NCBI GenBank assembly: GCA_002699025.1
Contig: PABA01000098.1
Location: 1-64,000, forward strand
Length of the DNA: 64,000 nt
DNA from: Sandaracinus sp.
GTDB taxonomy: Bacteria; Myxococcota_A; Polyangia; Polyangiales; Houyiibacteriaceae
Direction of reading: 5' to 3'
The notes below the pieces were generated by a model. It was not told where the DNA came from. It did not search any database and saw nothing but the letters and a program-made list of their open reading frames with translations. Below, piece by piece: positions 1,036 to 12,100 of the stretch (its first letter is position 1; each line of letters opens with the position of its first letter). The translations under genes and the position numbers were made by a program.

Positions 1036-1953
1036 TCAGTACCGCGGAACCGAAGAATCCACCTCGCGCGACCACGCATCGATCCCGCCCGCGAGGTTGA
1101 ACACATCCGTGAACCCCATCGCGATCGCCTGCTCCGCCGCCCGCTGACTCCGCATCCCGCTGTGGCAGTAGAACACCAGCGTGTGCGTCTTCTCGAGCTC
1201 CTCGAGCATGTGCCGCGCCTCGTCGTCGAGCAGCCGCGTCCCTTCGATCTTCGCCGTCGCCCGCTCCTCCGGCGTGCGCACGTCGATGACCTCCATCGGC
1301 TTGCCCTCCTCCATCCAGGCCGCGAGCTGCTTCGGCTCGAGCAGCTTCACCCGCGGCGGCTCGTTCGGGTTCTCGATCTTGAACCCCTCGCCGCCCGGCC
1401 CCTTCACGTAGTCGATGGTCATCCCGTCGGCCTTCTTCGCCGACGTCCGGTTCATCACCACGATCCACTTCGGCCCCTCGACCTTCACGTCGCCCGGCCG
1501 CTCCTGGTCGAAGTCCATCCCGTACTGCCACCGCGACGTGATCTCGAGGCGCACCACCGGCTTGCCCGGCCCGTCGTGGAAGCCCGCGAGCGCCTCCACG
1601 GCCCCATCCGTCACGAAGACCTCCGGCGGCCGCAGCTCGGGCCGCTTCACCCCGAGCACGTCGTCCAGCTCCCCGGTCGACGCCATCTCGAGCACGATGT
1701 CACAGCCCCCGACGAACTCCCCCTTCACGTAGAGCTGCGGGATCGTCGGCCAGCTCGAGTACTCCTTGATGCCCGAGCGCACCGCCGGCTCCGCGAGCAC
1801 GTTCACCGTCACGTACTCGGGCAGGTACTCGTCCAGCACGTCCACGACCTTCGCGGAGAAGCCGCACTGGGGCGCCTGCCGGGTGCCCTTCATGAAGAGG
1901 ACCACGCCCTCCTTCTTCACGAGCTCGTCGATCTGCCGCTGCGTCTCGTCCAT
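1036..1953 (-). CDS. Monothiol glutaredoxin / degenerate HesB-IscA / rhodanese three-domain fusion
   Basis: 305 aa. Residues 1-105 form a Grx4-type monothiol glutaredoxin with the CGFS site at 30-33 and the TIPQLYVKGEFVGGCD glutathione-binding stretch at 70-85. Grx4 proteins carry and transfer [2Fe-2S] clusters. Residues 110-200 have the spacing of an A-type (HesB/IscA) Fe-S carrier, ending in GGEGFKIENPN, but the three cluster-binding cysteines of that family are absent. Residues 205-300 are a rhodanese domain with active-site Cys263 in the loop YCHSGMRS. The ATG at 1953 is chosen because a good RBS (aggaggg) precedes it; an upstream in-frame ATG at 2055 has none. A role in Fe-S or sulfur trafficking is likely. 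The degenerate middle domain suggests scaffolding rather than cluster binding (inference). Confidence 0.9.
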   Translation of the reverse strand: MDETQRQIDELVKKEGVVLFMKGTRQAPQCGFSAKVVDVLDEYLPEYVTVNVLAEPAVRSGIKEYSSWPTIPQLYVKGEFVGGCDIVLEMASTGELDDVLGVKRPELRPPEVFVTDGAVEALAGFHDGPGKPVVRLEITSRWQYGMDFDQERPGDVKVEGPKWIVVMNRTSAKKADGMTIDYVKGPGGEGFKIENPNEPPRVKLLEPKQLAAWMEEGKPMEVIDVRTPEERATAKIEGTRLLDDEARHMLEELEKTHTLVFYCHSGMRSQRAAEQAIAMGFTDVFNLAGGIDAWSREVDSSVPRY

Positions 1954-2418: not shown

Positions 2419-3621
2419 TTGGCCGAACGCACGCCCCACCCCATCACCGCCTACGCCCTGAGCTGCGGCCTCGGGCGGACCACAGACGAGGTCTTCCAGG
2501 CCCTCCGCGACAAGCGCCGCGGCCTCCGCGAGGTCCCCTTCGAGATCCCCTTCGAGGCGATCACCGGCACGGTCCCCGGCGGGCCCCTCCCGCCGCTCCC
2601 GGAGCCCTTCCGCGACCGCGAGTCCCGCACGGCGCGCCTCACCGCCCTCGGCTTCCGCGGCATCGAGGCCGACGTCCTCGCCGCCCGGGAGCACTGGGGC
2701 CCCGAGCGCGTCGCCATCGTCCTCGGCACGAGCACCGGCGGCATCGATCGCACGGAGTACGCCCACTTCGACTGGTTCGGCCGCGGCGCCCCCGAGCCCC
2801 CCGCGCTCCCGGCGGACTACGACTACCCCAAGCAGCACCCCTTCCACGCCTTCGAGGATCTCGTCGCCGAGATGGCCGGCCTCGAGGGCCCGCGCTTCGT
2901 CGTGAGCACCGCCTGCTCGTCGAGCGCCAAGGTCTTCTCCTCGGCCCGGCGCCTGCTCGAGCTCGGCCTCGCGGACGCCGTGCTCGTCGGCGGCGTGGAC
3001 GGCCTCTGCAACACCACCGTCCGCGGCTTCAACAGCCTCGGCGTGATGGCGAGCGAGCCCTGCCGCCCCTTCGGCGCCGAGCGCCCCGGCATGAACGTCG
3101 GGGAGGGCGCCGCCTTCCTCCTCCTCGAGCGCCCCGGCCGCGCCCCGGCCCGGGCCTGGCTCCGCGGCGTCGGCGAGACCTCGGACGCCTACCACATGTC
3201 CTCGCCCGAGCCCGAGGGGCGCGGCGCCCTCGCCGCCATGGAGCAGGCCCTCGCGGAGGGCGGCGTCCGCCCCGAGCAGATCGGCTACGTGAACGCCCAC
3301 GGCACGGGCACCAAGTACAACGACGCCGCCGAGTCCAAGGCCCTCCACACGCTCTTCGGCGACGGCACCCCCGTCGTCTCGACCAAGGCCTACACGGGGC
3401 ACACGCTCGGAGCCTGCGGCGCCGTCGAGGCCATCTTCTCCATCCTCGCCCTCGAGGAGGGCTGGATCCCCGCCGGCCTCGGCGCGACCCCCCGCGATCC
3501 GGAGGTCCACATCGCCATCCCCGACGACATCCTGCGCCAGGACATGCGCTTCGTGCTGAGCAACGCCTTCGCCTTCGGCGGCAACAACGCCAGCCTCCTG
3601 CTCGAGCGAGGTGAGTCGTGA
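2419..3621 (+). CDS. Beta-ketoacyl-ACP synthase (KAS), first of the locus
   Basis: 400 aa, the usual length for a KAS I/II-type condensing enzyme. It would extend an acyl-ACP by decarboxylative condensation with malonyl-ACP. The full Cys-His-His triad is visible: Cys166 in VVSTACSSSA, His294 in VNAHGTGT and His328 in AYTGHTLGACG. The start is a TTG with gaaggaa about 10 bases upstream; no better start lies nearby. Its stop overlaps the GTG start of the next gene by 4 bases, so the two are probably translationally coupled. Together with the following CLF-like protein and second KAS it resembles the ketosynthase set of aryl-polyene/xanthomonadin-type pathways. Substrate unknown. Confidence 0.9.
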   Translation: MAERTPHPITAYALSCGLGRTTDEVFQALRDKRRGLREVPFEIPFEAITGTVPGGPLPPLPEPFRDRESRTARLTALGFRGIEADVLAAREHWGPERVAIVLGTSTGGIDRTEYAHFDWFGRGAPEPPALPADYDYPKQHPFHAFEDLVAEMAGLEGPRFVVSTACSSSAKVFSSARRLLELGLADAVLVGGVDGLCNTTVRGFNSLGVMASEPCRPFGAERPGMNVGEGAAFLLLERPGRAPARAWLRGVGETSDAYHMSSPEPEGRGALAAMEQALAEGGVRPEQIGYVNAHGTGTKYNDAAESKALHTLFGDGTPVVSTKAYTGHTLGACGAVEAIFSILALEEGWIPAGLGATPRDPEVHIAIPDDILRQDMRFVLSNAFAFGGNNASLLLERGES

Positions 3622-4421
3622 GCGAGACGCACGAGAGCGCCCTTCCCGTGCACGTCGTCGGCGTCGGCCTCTGGAGCCCCGGCTTCCCGGACGCCCCGCG
3701 CTTCCTCGCCGGCGAGCCCGACCCCGAGGTGAAGAAGCCGCCCTGCGCGCTGGTGAAGTCGCGCATGAAGCGCGCCACCAGCGTGCTCACCCGCTCCGCG
3801 GTCGAGGTGACGACCCAGGCCATCGAGGCCGCGGGCTGGCCCCTCGACGAGGTGGCGACGGTCTTCGGCTCCCAGCACGGCGAGATCCAGATCGCCGTCG
3901 AGCAGATGCAGATGATGCAGGAGGGCAGCGGCGTGGTCTCGCCCGCCCGCTTCAAGAACAGCGTGCACAACACGGCCGCCGGCCTCTTCTCCATCGCCGC
4001 GACGAACAAGCGCTTCACCACCGCCATCGCCGCCGGCGCGCACACCTTCGCCATGTGCCTGCTCGAGGCCTGGGGGCTGATGCTCGCGGGCGAGGCCGAG
4101 CGCGTGGTCGTGACCGTCGGCGAGGAGCCCCTGCCCGCGCCCATCACCCACTTCTCCCCGCACCGCGCCCTCGCCCTGAGCTTCGCCCTCGCCCGGGACG
4201 CGGCGCCCGAGCGCAGCCTCGGCCTCATCGGCCGGCCCGAGCGCGGCGAGGGGGAGGCGACGCCGGTGGACGCGGGCTTCGAGGGACACACGGCGGCGGG
4301 CGGGCTGCGGCTGCTCCGCGCGCTTCACGGCGGCCACGAGGGCGCTCTCGCGCTCTCGCCGGGCTGGCAGCTCCCCATGCGCGCGGCCCGGGCCCGCGCC
4401 GCGACCGGGGCCGCGGAGTAG
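3618..4421 (+). CDS. Ketosynthase-like 'chain length factor' (Ketoacyl-synt_2 type)
   Basis: 267 aa, only two thirds of a normal KAS. It matches the short ketosynthase N-terminal-like family found in aryl-polyene clusters (ApeC-type), whose members pair with an active KAS. The hallmark FKNSVHNTAAGLFSIA replaces the catalytic-Cys region, and neither active-site His motif is present. It should therefore be non-catalytic and shape the chain or the dimer interface of a partner KAS. The GTG start sits in a GTGA overlap with the upstream KAS gene; the next KAS gene begins 4 bases after the stop. Family assignment is by remembered motif, not by alignment. Confidence 0.82.
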   Translation: MSETHESALPVHVVGVGLWSPGFPDAPRFLAGEPDPEVKKPPCALVKSRMKRATSVLTRSAVEVTTQAIEAAGWPLDEVATVFGSQHGEIQIAVEQMQMMQEGSGVVSPARFKNSVHNTAAGLFSIAATNKRFTTAIAAGAHTFAMCLLEAWGLMLAGEAERVVVTVGEEPLPAPITHFSPHRALALSFALARDAAPERSLGLIGRPERGEGEATPVDAGFEGHTAAGGLRLLRALHGGHEGALALSPGWQLPMRAARARAATGAAE

Positions 4422-4425
4422 GTCC

Positions 4426-5649
4426 GTGCGCCGGGTCGCGATCACGGGCGTCGGCCTCGCCACGCCCATCGGGCACGATCTCGCCGCCGTCACCGAGGCG
4501 CTCCAGGGCGATCGGCACGGCGTGCGGGTCATGCACGAGTGGGACCGGCACCCGGAGATGCTCACGCGCCTCGGCGCGCCCGTCGACGACCTCGATCTCC
4601 GCCGCTGGCCCCGCAAGGTCACGCGCACCATGGGCCGCGTCGCCCGCCTCGCGCTCCACGCCTCCGAGGCCGCGCTCCAGCAGAGCGGCCTGGAGGAGGA
4701 CGCGCTTCACGGTGGGCGCGTCGGCCTGGCCTACGGCTCCACGGACGGCTCCACCTCCGTCTGGGAGAAGTTCGCGCTCACGCTCGAGCAGCCGAACGCC
4801 CTCCTCGGCCTCGGCTCGAACGCCTACCTGAAGTTCTCGACGCACACCTGCGCCGCGAACCTCGCCGTCCACTTCGGCATCCGCGGCCGCGTCCTCAGCA
4901 CCTGCGCCGCCTGCGTCTCCGCGAGCCAGGCCATCGGCTTCGGCTACGAGCAGATCAAGCACGGCATGCAGGACGCGATGATCTGCGGCGGCGCCGAGGA
5001 GCTCCACTACATCTCCACGGGCGTCTTCGACGTCCTCCAGGCGACCAGCACCCGCTACAACGACCGGCCCGACGAGAGCCCGCGCCCCTTCGACGCGGAG
5101 CGCGACGGCCTCGTCGTCGGCGAAGGCGCCGGCACGCTCGTCCTCGAGGAGTGGGAGCGGGCCGTCGCGCGCGGGGCGCCGATCCTCGCGGAGCTCGTCG
5201 GCTTCGGCACGAGCTGCGATGGGACGCACATCACCGCTCCCTCCGCCGCCGGCATGGAGACCGCCATGCGCCTCGCCCTCGAAGACGCGGGCCTCGCCCC
5301 CGGCGACCTCGACTACGTGAACGCCCACGCCACGGCCACGCAGGTCGGCGACCTCGGCGAGGCGCGCGCCACCTGGGCCGTCTTCCGCGACGCGGTCCCC
5401 GTGAGCAGCACCAAGGGCTTCACGGGGCACACGCTCGGGGCCTGCGGCGCCATCGAGGCGGCCTTCTGCCTCGCCATGCTCCGCGAGGGCTTCGTGGCCC
5501 CGAACCGGAACCTCCGCCTTGTCGACCCCGAGTGCCCACCCCTACCGTTGGTGAGCGGGGCCTGCCGCGAGGCGGACTTGCGCCAGGTGATGACCAACAA
5601 TTTCGCGTTCGGGGGGATCAACACCTCGATCGTGCTGAGGCGAGCATGA
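4426..5649 (+). CDS. Beta-ketoacyl-ACP synthase (FabF-like), second of the locus
   Basis: 407 aa. The N-terminus RRVAITGVGLATPIG is typical of FabF/KAS II. The predicted nucleophile is Cys163 in STCAACVSASQAIG: the spacing to AIG fits the standard alignment, although the residues just before it (TCAAC) are unusual. His301 (NAHATATQVGD) and His335 (FTGHTLGACG) complete the triad. GTG start. The stop overlaps the flavoprotein start in an ATGA junction, so four genes from 2419 to 6890 form one tight operon. It may pair with the CLF-like protein upstream; which of the two KAS enzymes is the partner cannot be told from sequence. Confidence 0.9.
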   Translation: MRRVAITGVGLATPIGHDLAAVTEALQGDRHGVRVMHEWDRHPEMLTRLGAPVDDLDLRRWPRKVTRTMGRVARLALHASEAALQQSGLEEDALHGGRVGLAYGSTDGSTSVWEKFALTLEQPNALLGLGSNAYLKFSTHTCAANLAVHFGIRGRVLSTCAACVSASQAIGFGYEQIKHGMQDAMICGGAEELHYISTGVFDVLQATSTRYNDRPDESPRPFDAERDGLVVGEGAGTLVLEEWERAVARGAPILAELVGFGTSCDGTHITAPSAAGMETAMRLALEDAGLAPGDLDYVNAHATATQVGDLGEARATWAVFRDAVPVSSTKGFTGHTLGACGAIEAAFCLAMLREGFVAPNRNLRLVDPECPPLPLVSGACREADLRQVMTNNFAFGGINTSIVLRRA

Positions 5650-6890
5650 GTGAGCAGGAGTCGTTCGACGTCATCGTGATCGGAGCCGGTCCGGCCGGGT
5701 CCACCACCGCCGCGCTGCTGGCCAAGGCCGGGCACCGCGTGGTCGTCTTGGAGCGCGCCCGCTTCCCGCGCTTCCACATCGGCGAGTCGCTCCTCCCCGC
5801 CGAGCTCCCCGTCTTCGACGCGCTCGGCTTCGATCCGGAGGGGCTCCCGGCCGTGTACAAGGCCGGCGCCGACTTCCTCGACGAGAGCACCGGCGACTAC
5901 GCCCGCTTCGACTTCTGTGACGCCCTCGAGGGCACGGGCGGGCACGCCTGGCAGGTCGACCGGGCGACCTTCGACGAGCGCCTGGCGGCGCGGGCCCGCG
6001 CGCTCGGCGCCGAGGTGCGCTTCGGCGTGCGCGCCACGGCCGTGCGCACGCCGGAGGATCGAGCAGGGGATCGGGCCGAGGTCGAGCTCGAGGGTGGCGA
6101 GGTGCTGCAGGCCCGCTACGTGGTCGACGCGACCGGCCGCGATCGGCTGCTCTGCAAACAGAACCGGAGCTTCGAGCGCATCGACGGCTTCGGCGTGGCG
6201 GCGGTCTGGGCCCACTTCGACGCGCTGAGCGACGCCGCCGTGGAGCGGCTCACGGAGTCCGGGAACATCACCGTGCTCATCCTCGACAAGGGCTGGGGCT
6301 GGGTGATCCCCCTGCCGAAGGGGCGGCTCAGCGTCGGCTTCGTCTCGTCCGAGCGCGGCGTGGTCAGCGAGGCCTGGTTCGAGGAGCAGTACGCGAAGAG
6401 CGCCTTCCTCCAGGAGCTCACGGCCGGCGCCCGCCGGAGCGAGCTCTCCGTCATCGGCGACTACAGCTTCAAGAACACGCAGCCCTTCGGCCCGCGCTAT
6501 GGCTGCGTGGGGGACGCGAGCGCCTTCCTCGACCCGGTCTTCTCGTCCGGCGTGGCCTTCGCCATGGACAGCGCCCACGCGCTCGTCGAGCTGCTCGAGC
6601 CGGCGCTCCGCGAAGGGCGGGAGGCCGCGCCGGACCTGCTCGAACCCCTCGCGGCGAAGATGAACCGGGCCTACGAGGTCTTCGGGGCGCTGATCCACAG
6701 CTTCTATCACACCAACCTGGTGAAGAATCTCTTCTTCTACGACGACCCGGACCCGCAGCTCCGCGCCGGCCTGATCAGCATCCTCGCCGGCGACGTCTGG
6801 CGCGACGACAACCCCTTCCAGGACATGGTCATGCGCTCGGCGCGCCGCCGGGCTCGCCGGGGCGCGAACCCGAGCGCCGCCGCGAGCTGA
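5646..6890 (+). CDS. FAD-dependent oxidoreductase, halogenase/geranylgeranyl-reductase-like
   Basis: 414 aa. The N-terminal dinucleotide-binding motif GAGPAG (13-18) is followed by the halogenase-family signature RFHIGESLLP. The C-terminal half contains GDASAFLDPVFSSGV, the second FAD contact of this superfamily. Single-component flavin monooxygenases and tryptophan-halogenase-like proteins of this type sit in several polyene pigment clusters. The two-lysine/WxWxIP features of true halogenases are only partly present (a GWGWVIPL stretch is visible), so hydroxylation, desaturation or halogenation are all possible. The ATG overlaps the preceding KAS stop (ATGA). A much longer in-frame open stretch upstream is a shadow of the KAS gene. 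Confidence 0.85.
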   Translation: MSEQESFDVIVIGAGPAGSTTAALLAKAGHRVVVLERARFPRFHIGESLLPAELPVFDALGFDPEGLPAVYKAGADFLDESTGDYARFDFCDALEGTGGHAWQVDRATFDERLAARARALGAEVRFGVRATAVRTPEDRAGDRAEVELEGGEVLQARYVVDATGRDRLLCKQNRSFERIDGFGVAAVWAHFDALSDAAVERLTESGNITVLILDKGWGWVIPLPKGRLSVGFVSSERGVVSEAWFEEQYAKSAFLQELTAGARRSELSVIGDYSFKNTQPFGPRYGCVGDASAFLDPVFSSGVAFAMDSAHALVELLEPALREGREAAPDLLEPLAAKMNRAYEVFGALIHSFYHTNLVKNLFFYDDPDPQLRAGLISILAGDVWRDDNPFQDMVMRSARRRARRGANPSAAAS

Positions 6891-6930
6891 GCGCAGCGCG
6901 CTGAGCGCAGCGCGCGCGGAGCGGGGCCGC

Positions 6931-7713
6931 TCAGAGGCTCTTGGAGAGCCCGAGGAAGCGCAGCATGAAGAGCCGCGCGAAGAGCAGGCTGACGAGCGCG
7001 TTGTCCGTGAACGCGAGGAAGTGGCTCACGCCCCCCTCCTCCTCCGGCACGTAGCGCACCTTCGTCGGCACGTGCACGACCGGGCACCCGCGCCAGACCA
7101 GCCGCACGGCGATCTCCGGGTCGAAGTCCATCCGGTCGCCGCAGCGGTCCATCACGGCCACCGCGTCCGCGATCGGATAGACCCGATAGCCGCACATCGG
7201 ATCGGCGATGCGACCCCGGTCGAGGGCCGTCGCCACGTTCACCCAGAAGATGCTCAGCTTCCGCGCCACGCGTCGATGGCCCGGGGCCGACTCGTCGAAG
7301 ACCGGCTGCCCGAGCACCAGGGCGCCGGGGGCCTCCCGCGCCGCCACTAGGAGCCGCGGCACGTCCCCGAGGTCGTGCTGTCCATCCGCGTCGACCTGGA
7401 GCGCGTGCGTGTACCCGGCCTCCGCCGCCCAGCGCAGCCCGTCCTTCACCGCGGCGCCCTTCCCGCCGTTCGTCGCGCGATGCAGGACCGTGACGCCCTC
7501 GTGCGCCGCGAGCCGCTGGAGCGCCTCCTGCGCCGCCGGACCGCCGCCGTCGTCCACGACGATCACCCCCGGCACGTGCTCGCGGGCCTCGAGGGCGACC
7601 CGCTCGATCGTGAGCGGGTTGTCATAGGTCGGAACGACGACGACCGGACGGAACGGGCGCCGCTGCAGATCGCGGCCCGCGGCCCGGCCGCGCCACTCGA
7701 GCTCGACGCCCAC
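6931..7713 (-). CDS. Family 2 glycosyltransferase (dolichyl-phosphate-mannose-synthase-like)
   Basis: 260 aa GT-A fold enzyme. VVVPTYDNPLTIERV begins the nucleotide-sugar domain, VIVVDDGGG supplies the first acidic site, and DADGQHD is the metal-binding motif. A hydrophobic C-terminal segment (about 225-255) may anchor it to the membrane. The GTG start lies 8 bases after the stop of the ACP gene on the same strand, so the two are co-transcribed and convergent with the KAS operon. Similar GT2/acyltransferase proteins modify or transfer the finished acyl chain in aryl-polyene clusters. Sugar donor and acceptor are unknown. Confidence 0.87.
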   Translation of the reverse strand: MGVELEWRGRAAGRDLQRRPFRPVVVVPTYDNPLTIERVALEAREHVPGVIVVDDGGGPAAQEALQRLAAHEGVTVLHRATNGGKGAAVKDGLRWAAEAGYTHALQVDADGQHDLGDVPRLLVAAREAPGALVLGQPVFDESAPGHRRVARKLSIFWVNVATALDRGRIADPMCGYRVYPIADAVAVMDRCGDRMDFDPEIAVRLVWRGCPVVHVPTKVRYVPEEEGGVSHFLAFTDNALVSLLFARLFMLRFLGLSKSL

Positions 7714-7721
7714 GCGCCCGC

Positions 7722-7985
7722 TCAGGCGCGCTGCGCGGCGACGTGCGCCGCGAGGTTCTTCACGTTGCGGAAGATCTCGCGGGTGTTCTCGTCCTCCGCC
7801 TTGATCTTCACGCCGTACTTCTTGTCGATGGCGATCGCGAGCTCGAGCGCGTCGATCGAGTCGAGGCCGAGCCCTTCCACGAAGAGGGGCGCCTCGGCGT
7901 CGATCTCGCCGGGGGTCACGTCGTCGAGCATCAACGCGTCGACGATCAGCTCCTTGATCTCCTGCTCGAGTGCTTCTTCAGCCAT
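7722..7985 (-). CDS. Acyl carrier protein
   Basis: 87 aa acidic helical protein with the phosphopantetheine site LGLDSIDALEL; Ser43 is the attachment residue. Length and composition are those of a dedicated type II ACP. It is the first gene of a two-gene unit with the GT2 and faces the KAS/CLF/flavoprotein operon, so it is the obvious carrier for that pathway. A housekeeping FAS ACP would normally sit beside fabG/fabF/fabD, which are not here. Confidence 0.93.
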   Translation of the reverse strand: MAEEALEQEIKELIVDALMLDDVTPGEIDAEAPLFVEGLGLDSIDALELAIAIDKKYGVKIKAEDENTREIFRNVKNLAAHVAAQRA

Positions 7986-8304: not shown

Positions 8305-11013
<2,709 letters not shown>

Positions 11014-11605: not shown

Positions 11606-12100
11606 ATGGCCAAGGCCCGAAAGACGAGCTCGAAGAAGTCGACCAAGAAGTCCTCCGGGGGACGCGGCAGCAAGGAGGCGATCGAGAAGCGCCGCGTGGC
11701 GCGCCAGCTGAACGCGCTCCTCACGGGGGGAAGCTCGAAGAAGCCCAAGCTCGACGGCCGCACCGAGGCGCGCCGGAAGCGGCTCGTGAAGGAGCTCAAG
11801 GAGGGCAAGCGCGGCAAGGCGCTCGATCCGATCAAGGTCGTCCAGCACACGAACGACCTCCTCGAGATCGGCGAGACGATCTCCTCGCTCAAGAAGCAGG
11901 GCGTCAAGCCGCGCAAGACCGAGATCAACGACGAGATCGCGGAGATCGTGAAGCGCGCGCAGAGCGCCTACGAGTTCCACCCGAACGCCTGGCGCATGCT
12001 GGGTCTGCGGGTCGACGCCGAGGGCGAGATCCAGAAGCGGACCCGCCGGCGCACGGCCGCGAAGAAGACGCGGAAGACGACCAAGAAGAAGAAGAGCTGA
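11606..12100 (+). CDS. Lysine-rich hypothetical protein (164 aa)
   Basis: Unrecognised. Residues 1-20 (AKARKTSSKKSTKKSS) and the C-terminus (KKTRKTTKKKKS) are highly basic, as in histone-H1-like or ribosome-associated tails. The central part (about 40-140) is predicted helical, with alternating charged residues and a relatively conserved-looking KTEINDEIAEIVKRAQSAY stretch. The ATG at 11606 has gaaggaaac upstream; a longer frame starting at 11417 lacks such support. It is followed about 165 bp later by tRNA-Cys. Nucleic-acid binding is a reasonable guess from charge only. Confidence 0.75.
   Translation: MAKARKTSSKKSTKKSSGGRGSKEAIEKRRVARQLNALLTGGSSKKPKLDGRTEARRKRLVKELKEGKRGKALDPIKVVQHTNDLLEIGETISSLKKQGVKPRKTEINDEIAEIVKRAQSAYEFHPNAWRMLGLRVDAEGEIQKRTRRRTAAKKTRKTTKKKKS

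Follow-up and report, generated by a model that had tools for sequence, protein, structure and literature searches.

The six genes at positions 2419-7985 of a 64,000-nucleotide stretch of Sandaracinus sp. raise the question of how a set of polyene-type condensing enzymes can make a product when most of the other enzymes of such a pathway are missing around it. The stretch, here called the window, comprises bases 1-64,000 of contig C109 (101,606 bases) of the draft genome G000 (9.24 Mb). The six genes very probably encode the condensing core of a polyene synthase of the aryl polyene (APE) type, a highly reducing type II system, with the rest of the pathway encoded on contigs C170 and C130. Its starter AMP-ligase and aromatic ammonia lyase appear to have been lost, and because of this double loss priming would have to differ from the known route. 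The reading is built on gene content, homology, linkage in relatives and the pattern of absences.

All six genes listed within 5.6 kb in the earlier note on this DNA are present with intact reading frames. On the plus strand, KS1 (2419-3621, TTG start) encodes an ApeO-type catalytic ketosynthase, which matches PRK09185 with 433.2 bits (curated NCBIfam cut-off 407) and E. coli ApeO with 4e-77 (phmmer). It is followed by CLF (3618-4421), a short non-catalytic chain-length factor of the ApeC type (PF13723), by KS2 (4426-5649), an ApeR-type catalytic ketosynthase (PRK09116, 504 bits, curated NCBIfam cut-off 470), and by FLV (5646-6890), a flavin-dependent halogenase-like flavoprotein (PF04820). 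The frames of KS1 and CLF and those of KS2 and FLV overlap by 4 nt, and only a few bases separate CLF from KS2. Opposite to these, on the minus strand, are found GT2 (6931-7713, PF00535), a family 2 glycosyltransferase and counterpart of the glycosyltransferase half of ApeJ (5e-56 to E. coli ApeJ, phmmer), with a best match of at least 254 bits in each of 14 genomes searched, and ACP (7722-7985), an acyl carrier protein of the ApeE type (PRK09184, 107.7 bits, curated NCBIfam cut-off 70; 2e-26 to E. coli ApeE, phmmer).

Ketosynthases work with a Cys/His/His set of catalytic residues. This active site is kept in KS1 and KS2, the Cys is absent from CLF, and the catalytic residues of the ketosynthases are invariant across the aligned relatives. 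Active-site residues and families together confirm two complete ketosynthases with a short non-catalytic partner, and the family and structure matches to ApeO, ApeC and ApeR confirm that the core is of the aryl polyene type, both as the earlier note had it. The closest solved structures of KS1 and CLF are the chains 6qsp_A and 6qsp_B of one complex, the PDB title of the latter being ApeO with its chain length factor ApeC. Chain 6qsp_B is the best PDB match of CLF by sequence (E 4.1e-07) and also the top PDB match of its AlphaFold model (mean pLDDT 82.9, 11 sequences; E 1.9e-12, TM 0.65/0.72). Since both proteins match chains of one complex, KS1 is the likely partner of CLF in the heterodimer that had been proposed. 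KS1 is independently named as the probable partner by the finding of KS1 and CLF within a single open frame in 4 of 30 CLF loci (G005, G080, G083, G137). These natural fusions, of about 640-690 amino acids as called (L055 gene 12, L206 gene 1, L207 gene 8, L209 gene 6), could be useful for structural work on the heterodimer. For KS2 the best PDB matches are 4ewg, called an ApeR protein in the available portion of PMC8358021, and 7f27, which is presumably AbApeR, with Tyr135 and Phe202 falling at the places given in that portion. Elsewhere in G000 (C141:8084-10356, L004) another ketosynthase stands with an adjacent ketosynthase-like stretch in an 805 amino acid open frame that the CLF profile matches weakly; the two might form a second type II synthase pair.

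Flavin-dependent halogenases are marked by a catalytic Lys and the motifs WxWxIP and FxPxFSSG. In FLV and its relatives Lys72, the W/W/I/P residues of WxWxIP and FLDPxFSSG are invariant in 12 of 12 aligned sequences, and the fold matches 3nix, ChlB4, PltA and Mpy16. Flavin monooxygenases and reductases also match FLV in sequence and fold, less well, and because other flavin monooxygenases have the same fold, halogenation by FLV is put no higher than likely. According to the sections available of PMC3691225 and PMC3949708, a halogenase gene is also present in xanthomonadin and arcuflavin clusters, respectively.

The earlier note had found no ketoreductase (KR), dehydratase (DH), starter ligase, thioesterase (TE) or outer-membrane parts in the window. 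This holds even for the whole of contig C109: a phmmer search (E 1e-5) using proteins of the pathway itself and those of E. coli found no KR, DH, ligase, TE, LolA or exporter among its 82 called genes, and the other 37.6 kb beyond the window, considered as the place of the missing genes, hold none. Genes were called with a small codon-usage caller on stretches of 15 genomes and four named records, and then on more. The lack of any KR or DH on the entire contig would fit a self-standing core relying on the reductase and dehydratase of housekeeping fatty acid synthesis, as the earlier note had offered, but dedicated genes are present elsewhere in G000. Contig C170 carries a KR, an ApeG-like protein, an acyltransferase (AT), a TE and LolA on one strand and, on the opposite strand, an MMPL exporter, and contig C130 carries an ApeD-like acyltransferase, a second ApeR-type ketosynthase (KSx; 515.1 bits to PRK09116, above the cut-off), two flavoproteins (FLx1 and FLx2), an ApeF-like acyl carrier protein (ACPx) and an ApeP-like DH (PF22817, 34.3 bits, cut-off 27). 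The KR of C170 is the closest G000 homologue of the in-operon KR of G008, with 65% identity, and is distinct from the next G000 match (44%); KR lies within the operon in G008, G034, G053 and G046, and relatives hold these dedicated parts in one cluster. Borrowing from housekeeping enzymes is in view of this very improbable. The hunt through the genome which the earlier note had called for was successful for KR and an ApeP-like DH and yielded no starter ligase.

The pathway has two dedicated acyl carrier proteins, the ApeE-like one in the window and the ApeF-like one on C130, and the lipid attachment and export set (acyltransferases, GT2, TE, LolA, MMPL) is complete across the window, C170 and C130. 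When the APE proteins of E. coli CFT073 were compared by phmmer with these three G000 loci, C, D, E, F, G, J (as two halves), K, L, M, O, P, Q and R (in two copies) were matched; the ape letters of CFT073 were assigned by gene order, consistent with the functions in the available part of PMC8253772. In seven genomes a gene of about 200-320 amino acids, at most some 500 bases from a pathway gene, might be a counterpart of ApeN (L052 gene 11; L060, L061, L155, L160, L194, L207). FLx1 and FLx2 (L045:2877-6677) are divergently transcribed halogenase-like flavoproteins with a C-terminal end longer than in FLV; they stand with KSx, ACPx and the ApeP-like DH, a set which recurs in several relatives and which in G013 lies within a cluster having ligase and lyase.

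That the genes of the window, C170 and C130 belong to one pathway follows from G003, in which all three groups share one contig: KS2-FLV-KS1-CLF, the KSx group, MMPL-LolA-TE-acyltransferase-ApeG-KR and GT2-ACP-aconitase. In G013 the genes KR-ACP-ApeG-LIG-GT2-AT-HAL-TE-LolA-MMPL-DH-ACPx-FLx2-FLx1-KSx-acyltransferase are contiguous, and G021 has a single cluster comprising the core, the ligase, the lyase and exporter genes. An ApeR-type ketosynthase above 400 bits was detected in 17 of 57 genomes, all of them among the 19 with CLF, counting for G006 and G013 a CLF that is a contig-end fragment; the two remaining CLF-bearing genomes (G012, G021) had no ApeR-type match above 400 bits. Scattered genes and the disappearance of two ancestral ones could also be the picture of a decaying remnant without function. 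With six intact frames, catalytic residues invariant in the aligned relatives and a core conserved across 7 genera of the family (9 genomes; in G006 as pieces on separate contigs), such decay is the least probable of all the explanations weighed here.

The operon starts 2.4 kb from the contig end, which would agree with a cluster cut by the end of the contig, the missing genes having formerly been adjacent. The gene for a glutaredoxin-rhodanese protein (1036-1953, minus strand) upstream of KS1 speaks against such a cut, as in G006, G007, G008, G010 and G014 it adjoins KS1 or stands one gene off and the contigs continue past it, and so do the missing parts, intact on C170 and C130; a truncated cluster is therefore highly unlikely. 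On the other side, an aconitase gene (8305-11013, minus strand) is the neighbour of ACP and GT2 in seven ligase-less genomes (G000, G003, G006, G007, G008, G010, G014; the GT2 of G003, missed by the gene caller, was placed by homology search). Because both genes recur there in relatives, the ends of the gene set look like true borders, judged by gene order, though the contig starts at base 1 of the window. Among the genomes mapped, only the window and G006 have the ACP-GT2 pair adjoining the ketosynthase operon; the place of the pair beside aconitase looks as if it had moved once to that housekeeping site. Also beside aconitase, at 11606-12100, is a gene for a small Lys/Arg-rich protein with relatives there in seven ligase-less genomes. 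Altogether the set of the window is neither a fragment nor a core obliged to borrow from housekeeping fatty acid synthesis.

In the known pathways of E. coli (PMC8253772) and Azoarcus (PMC3949708) the first step, as given in the accessible text of both papers, is the activation of an aromatic acid by a dedicated ligase. A profile of this starter ligase and a profile of CLF were searched in 183 genomes of the order. CLF was present in 37, in 34 of them with more than 80 bits, in G006 (74.6 bits) and G013 (22.3 bits) as contig-end fragments and in G098 weakly (42.6 bits). The ligase (E below 1e-50) was found in 26 of the 37, partial in G053 and G179, and was not found in 11, which are nine genomes of the window's family (G000, G003, G006, G007, G008, G009, G010, G014, G015) and two of another family (G080, G148); G037, which has no CLF, gave a partial ligase match. 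In a single-protein search of 14 genomes, including all nine of the family, every candidate was scored, and the best scores in the nine did not exceed 51.3 bits, versus 296-988 bits for intact ligases in the same search. For G000 the 51.3 bits were the best of 44 candidates, and its profile score was 69.3 bits (8 of 93 candidates scored) versus 253-799 bits for near-full-length ligases; a phmmer search with E. coli ApeH found no counterpart in the three G000 loci. A pathway-type ammonia lyase was present in 21 of the 26 ligase-bearing genomes (in G083 and G137 counted from two separate pieces each) and in none of the 11 without ligase.

In a tree of KS1 and CLF, comprising 30 of the 37 genomes and two outsiders (G006, G013, G098, G107, G136, G138 and G166 were left out), the eight placeable ligase-less genomes of the window's family form one clade with 100/100 support. 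The ligase label changes three times in all on this tree, with weak support (86/87) at one fork around the clade. Since ligase-bearing groups flank the clade on both sides and E. coli has the ligase, we infer that the ligase was lost in this lineage and not gained elsewhere. The gene orders ApeG-LIG-GT2-AT-HAL-TE (G013, G005) and ApeG-AT-TE (G000, G003, G006, G010, G015) agree with such a loss. The earlier note's proposal of a different product may still hold in a narrower form, since starter ligase and ammonia lyase are missing in the lineage.

A lipoprotein-like esterase of family PF00756 accompanies the KR group of C170 (L141:12058-13005). Seven ligase-less genomes (G000, G003, G007, G009, G010, G014, G015) carry it adjoining the KR group or not far from it; in G039 it is found close to the KSx group and in G021 close to the cluster. 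It may serve an extra step of lipid attachment. As a replacement of the ligase it was rejected: ligase-bearing genomes have close homologues too, with linkage to the pathway in the case of G039 and G021, and G006 is without it. Among families present in at least three genomes in the fetched stretches of the ligase-less clade, there was no recurrent new pathway neighbour resembling a loading enzyme, the recurrent neighbours found standing beyond the glutaredoxin-rhodanese or the aconitase border.

How the pathway is then primed divides the preferred explanation into two sub-cases. The available portion of PMC8358021 describes that Tyr135 and Phe202 of AbApeR stack the aryl group. The equivalent residues are kept in 31 of 34 (Tyr) and 34 of 34 (Phe) ApeR-type sequences, the three exceptions, KS2 of G003 and KSx of G005 and of G013, having Phe in place of Tyr. 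The Tyr occurs in FabB-type synthases as well, which is why this residue is not diagnostic for an aryl starter. As a starter test the pair was set aside as not informative; its retention in the ligase-less clade is mild evidence for an aryl group. A search for chorismate lyase was negative in all 27 genomes, ligase-bearing ones included (the E. coli control was detected), and does not separate the groups; the XanB2-type chorismatase (PF21168) was found in none of 36 genomes, the controls also giving no match.

It is quite possible that an ordinary aryl polyene is made from scattered genes, with an unrelated and unlinked AMP- or CoA-ligase loading the aromatic acid. Adenylate-forming enzymes are present in G000, where the ligase query gave 12 further weak matches, some of them sharing a reading frame. 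In addition, the aryl-stacking Tyr and Phe of ApeR are kept, and the halogenase-like flavoprotein would suit an aromatic substrate; the clade has no recurrent neighbour of the loading type and no pathway-type ammonia lyase, the 27 genomes have no chorismate lyase, and the Tyr is shared with FabB-type enzymes. It is also possible that the lineage switched to a non-aromatic starter, an acyl-ACP or acyl-CoA supplied by fatty acid metabolism, in which case its polyene lipid would lack the aryl head. This is favoured by the joint absence of ligase and lyase in all nine family genomes with CLF but without ligase, eight of which form one clade, with KS1, CLF, KS2 and GT2 kept; the kept aryl-stacking residues and the lack of the lyase in five ligase-bearing genomes tell against it. 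Both sub-cases are possible and are rated about equal. Tentatively, this lineage of myxobacteria-like bacteria may have freed the APE machinery from its aryl starter, with ApeO-ApeC primed by an acyl group of another kind, possibly non-aromatic, and the polyene decorated by as many as three halogenase-like flavoproteins; the product might then represent an undescribed class of outer-membrane polyene lipids.

Several observations weigh against the reading of a complete, ligase-less APE-type pathway. The likeness of CLF to ApeC is weak in sequence (E 4e-7), and phmmer with the CFT073 proteins gave no counterpart of ApeA, B, H, I and N in the three G000 loci, the search covering the fetched loci only; here it is the gap of ApeA, B, I and N that counts. 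The six genes are not kept together, ACP and GT2 being elsewhere in G007, G008, G009, G010 and G014. G009 is without FLV beside KS2 and shows no KSx group in its fetched loci, the fetched loci of G008 and G009 hold no ApeG, acyltransferase, TE or LolA, and in G007 and G014 no TE was called between acyltransferase and LolA. With regard to the loss of priming genes, the profile search scored only 8 first-look candidates per genome, the ligase-less G080 and G148 lie outside the clade, five ligase-bearing genomes (G053, G102, G138, G177, G178) also lack the pathway-type lyase, so that its absence alone is nothing special, and the aryl-stacking residues are conserved. Finally, most genomes are drafts and some absences may be gaps; that of the ligase rests on nine agreeing genomes.

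By homology, and following the scheme of APE biosynthesis in the available parts of PMC8253772 and PMC8358021, the steps of this APE-type pathway can be drawn as follows. The heterodimer of KS1 and CLF (ApeO-ApeC) would condense malonyl units on ACP, assisted in elongation by KS2 or KSx as auxiliary ApeR-type ketosynthase. The KR of C170 and the ApeP-like DH of C130 would form each double bond, and FLV may act on the chain or on a head group. The TE of C170 is predicted to free the polyene acid, GT2 and the acyltransferase of C170, together a split ApeJ, to help in attaching it to a lipid, and MMPL and LolA to carry the lipid-linked polyene outward.

For the comparison with known systems, likeness to APE clusters was judged on the gene set of the E. 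coli cluster and for the rest via solved structures. The APE clusters of E. coli CFT073, Xenorhabdus doucetiae and Acinetobacter baumannii share with G000 the ApeO-ApeC pair and ApeR, two acyl carrier proteins, KR, ApeP-like DH, TE, acyltransferases, GT2, LolA and MMPL. G000 differs in having three loci, no ApeH, an ApeJ split into two genes and three added halogenase-like flavoproteins, and in that ApeI, ApeN, ApeA and ApeB were not found in the three loci. The set of G000 is not filed as an APE cluster proper, because the starter ligase, a defining feature, was searched for and not found. In the flexirubin clusters of Bacteroidetes an aromatic ammonia lyase accompanies the polyene core, just as in the ligase-bearing relatives, and as a further likeness the KR of C170 reaches 308.2 bits with flexirubin FlxB, below the cut-off of 340; they differ in that the lyase is absent in this lineage. 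The highly reducing type II polyketide synthases of the ishigamide type (Streptomyces) are similar in their polyene synthase of ketosynthase and chain-length factor, 6kxe and 6kxd being among the CLF fold matches. The ishigamide-type polyene is not known to be aryl-primed. The short ApeC-type CLF and the genes for lipid attachment and export are, in distinction to that type, APE features. In the xanthomonadin and arcuflavin systems (Xanthomonas, Azoarcus sp. BH72), as far as described in the accessible parts of PMC3949708 and PMC3691225, a polyene core likewise occurs with a halogenase gene and a glycosyltransferase; these systems have an AMP-ligase, which was not found here, and a XanB2-type chorismatase, for which the search was empty and without a working control.

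In the literature searched, titles and abstract openings describe no ligase-less APE lineage, and the portion available of PMC11821767 reports APE clusters detected by antiSMASH in Polyangiales bins. Tools seeking one contiguous cluster can misread a pathway of this sort, each piece of which seems incomplete here when taken alone. Retention of the chain-building core without the ligase, in G000 together with attachment and export, makes this lineage a natural test of how far the ketosynthases set the choice of starter. The genes of G000 represent a known kind of pathway which has been scattered and appears to have lost its known priming step; split polyene clusters are already known, the arcuflavin genes of Azoarcus lying in two unlinked loci according to the accessible text of PMC3949708.

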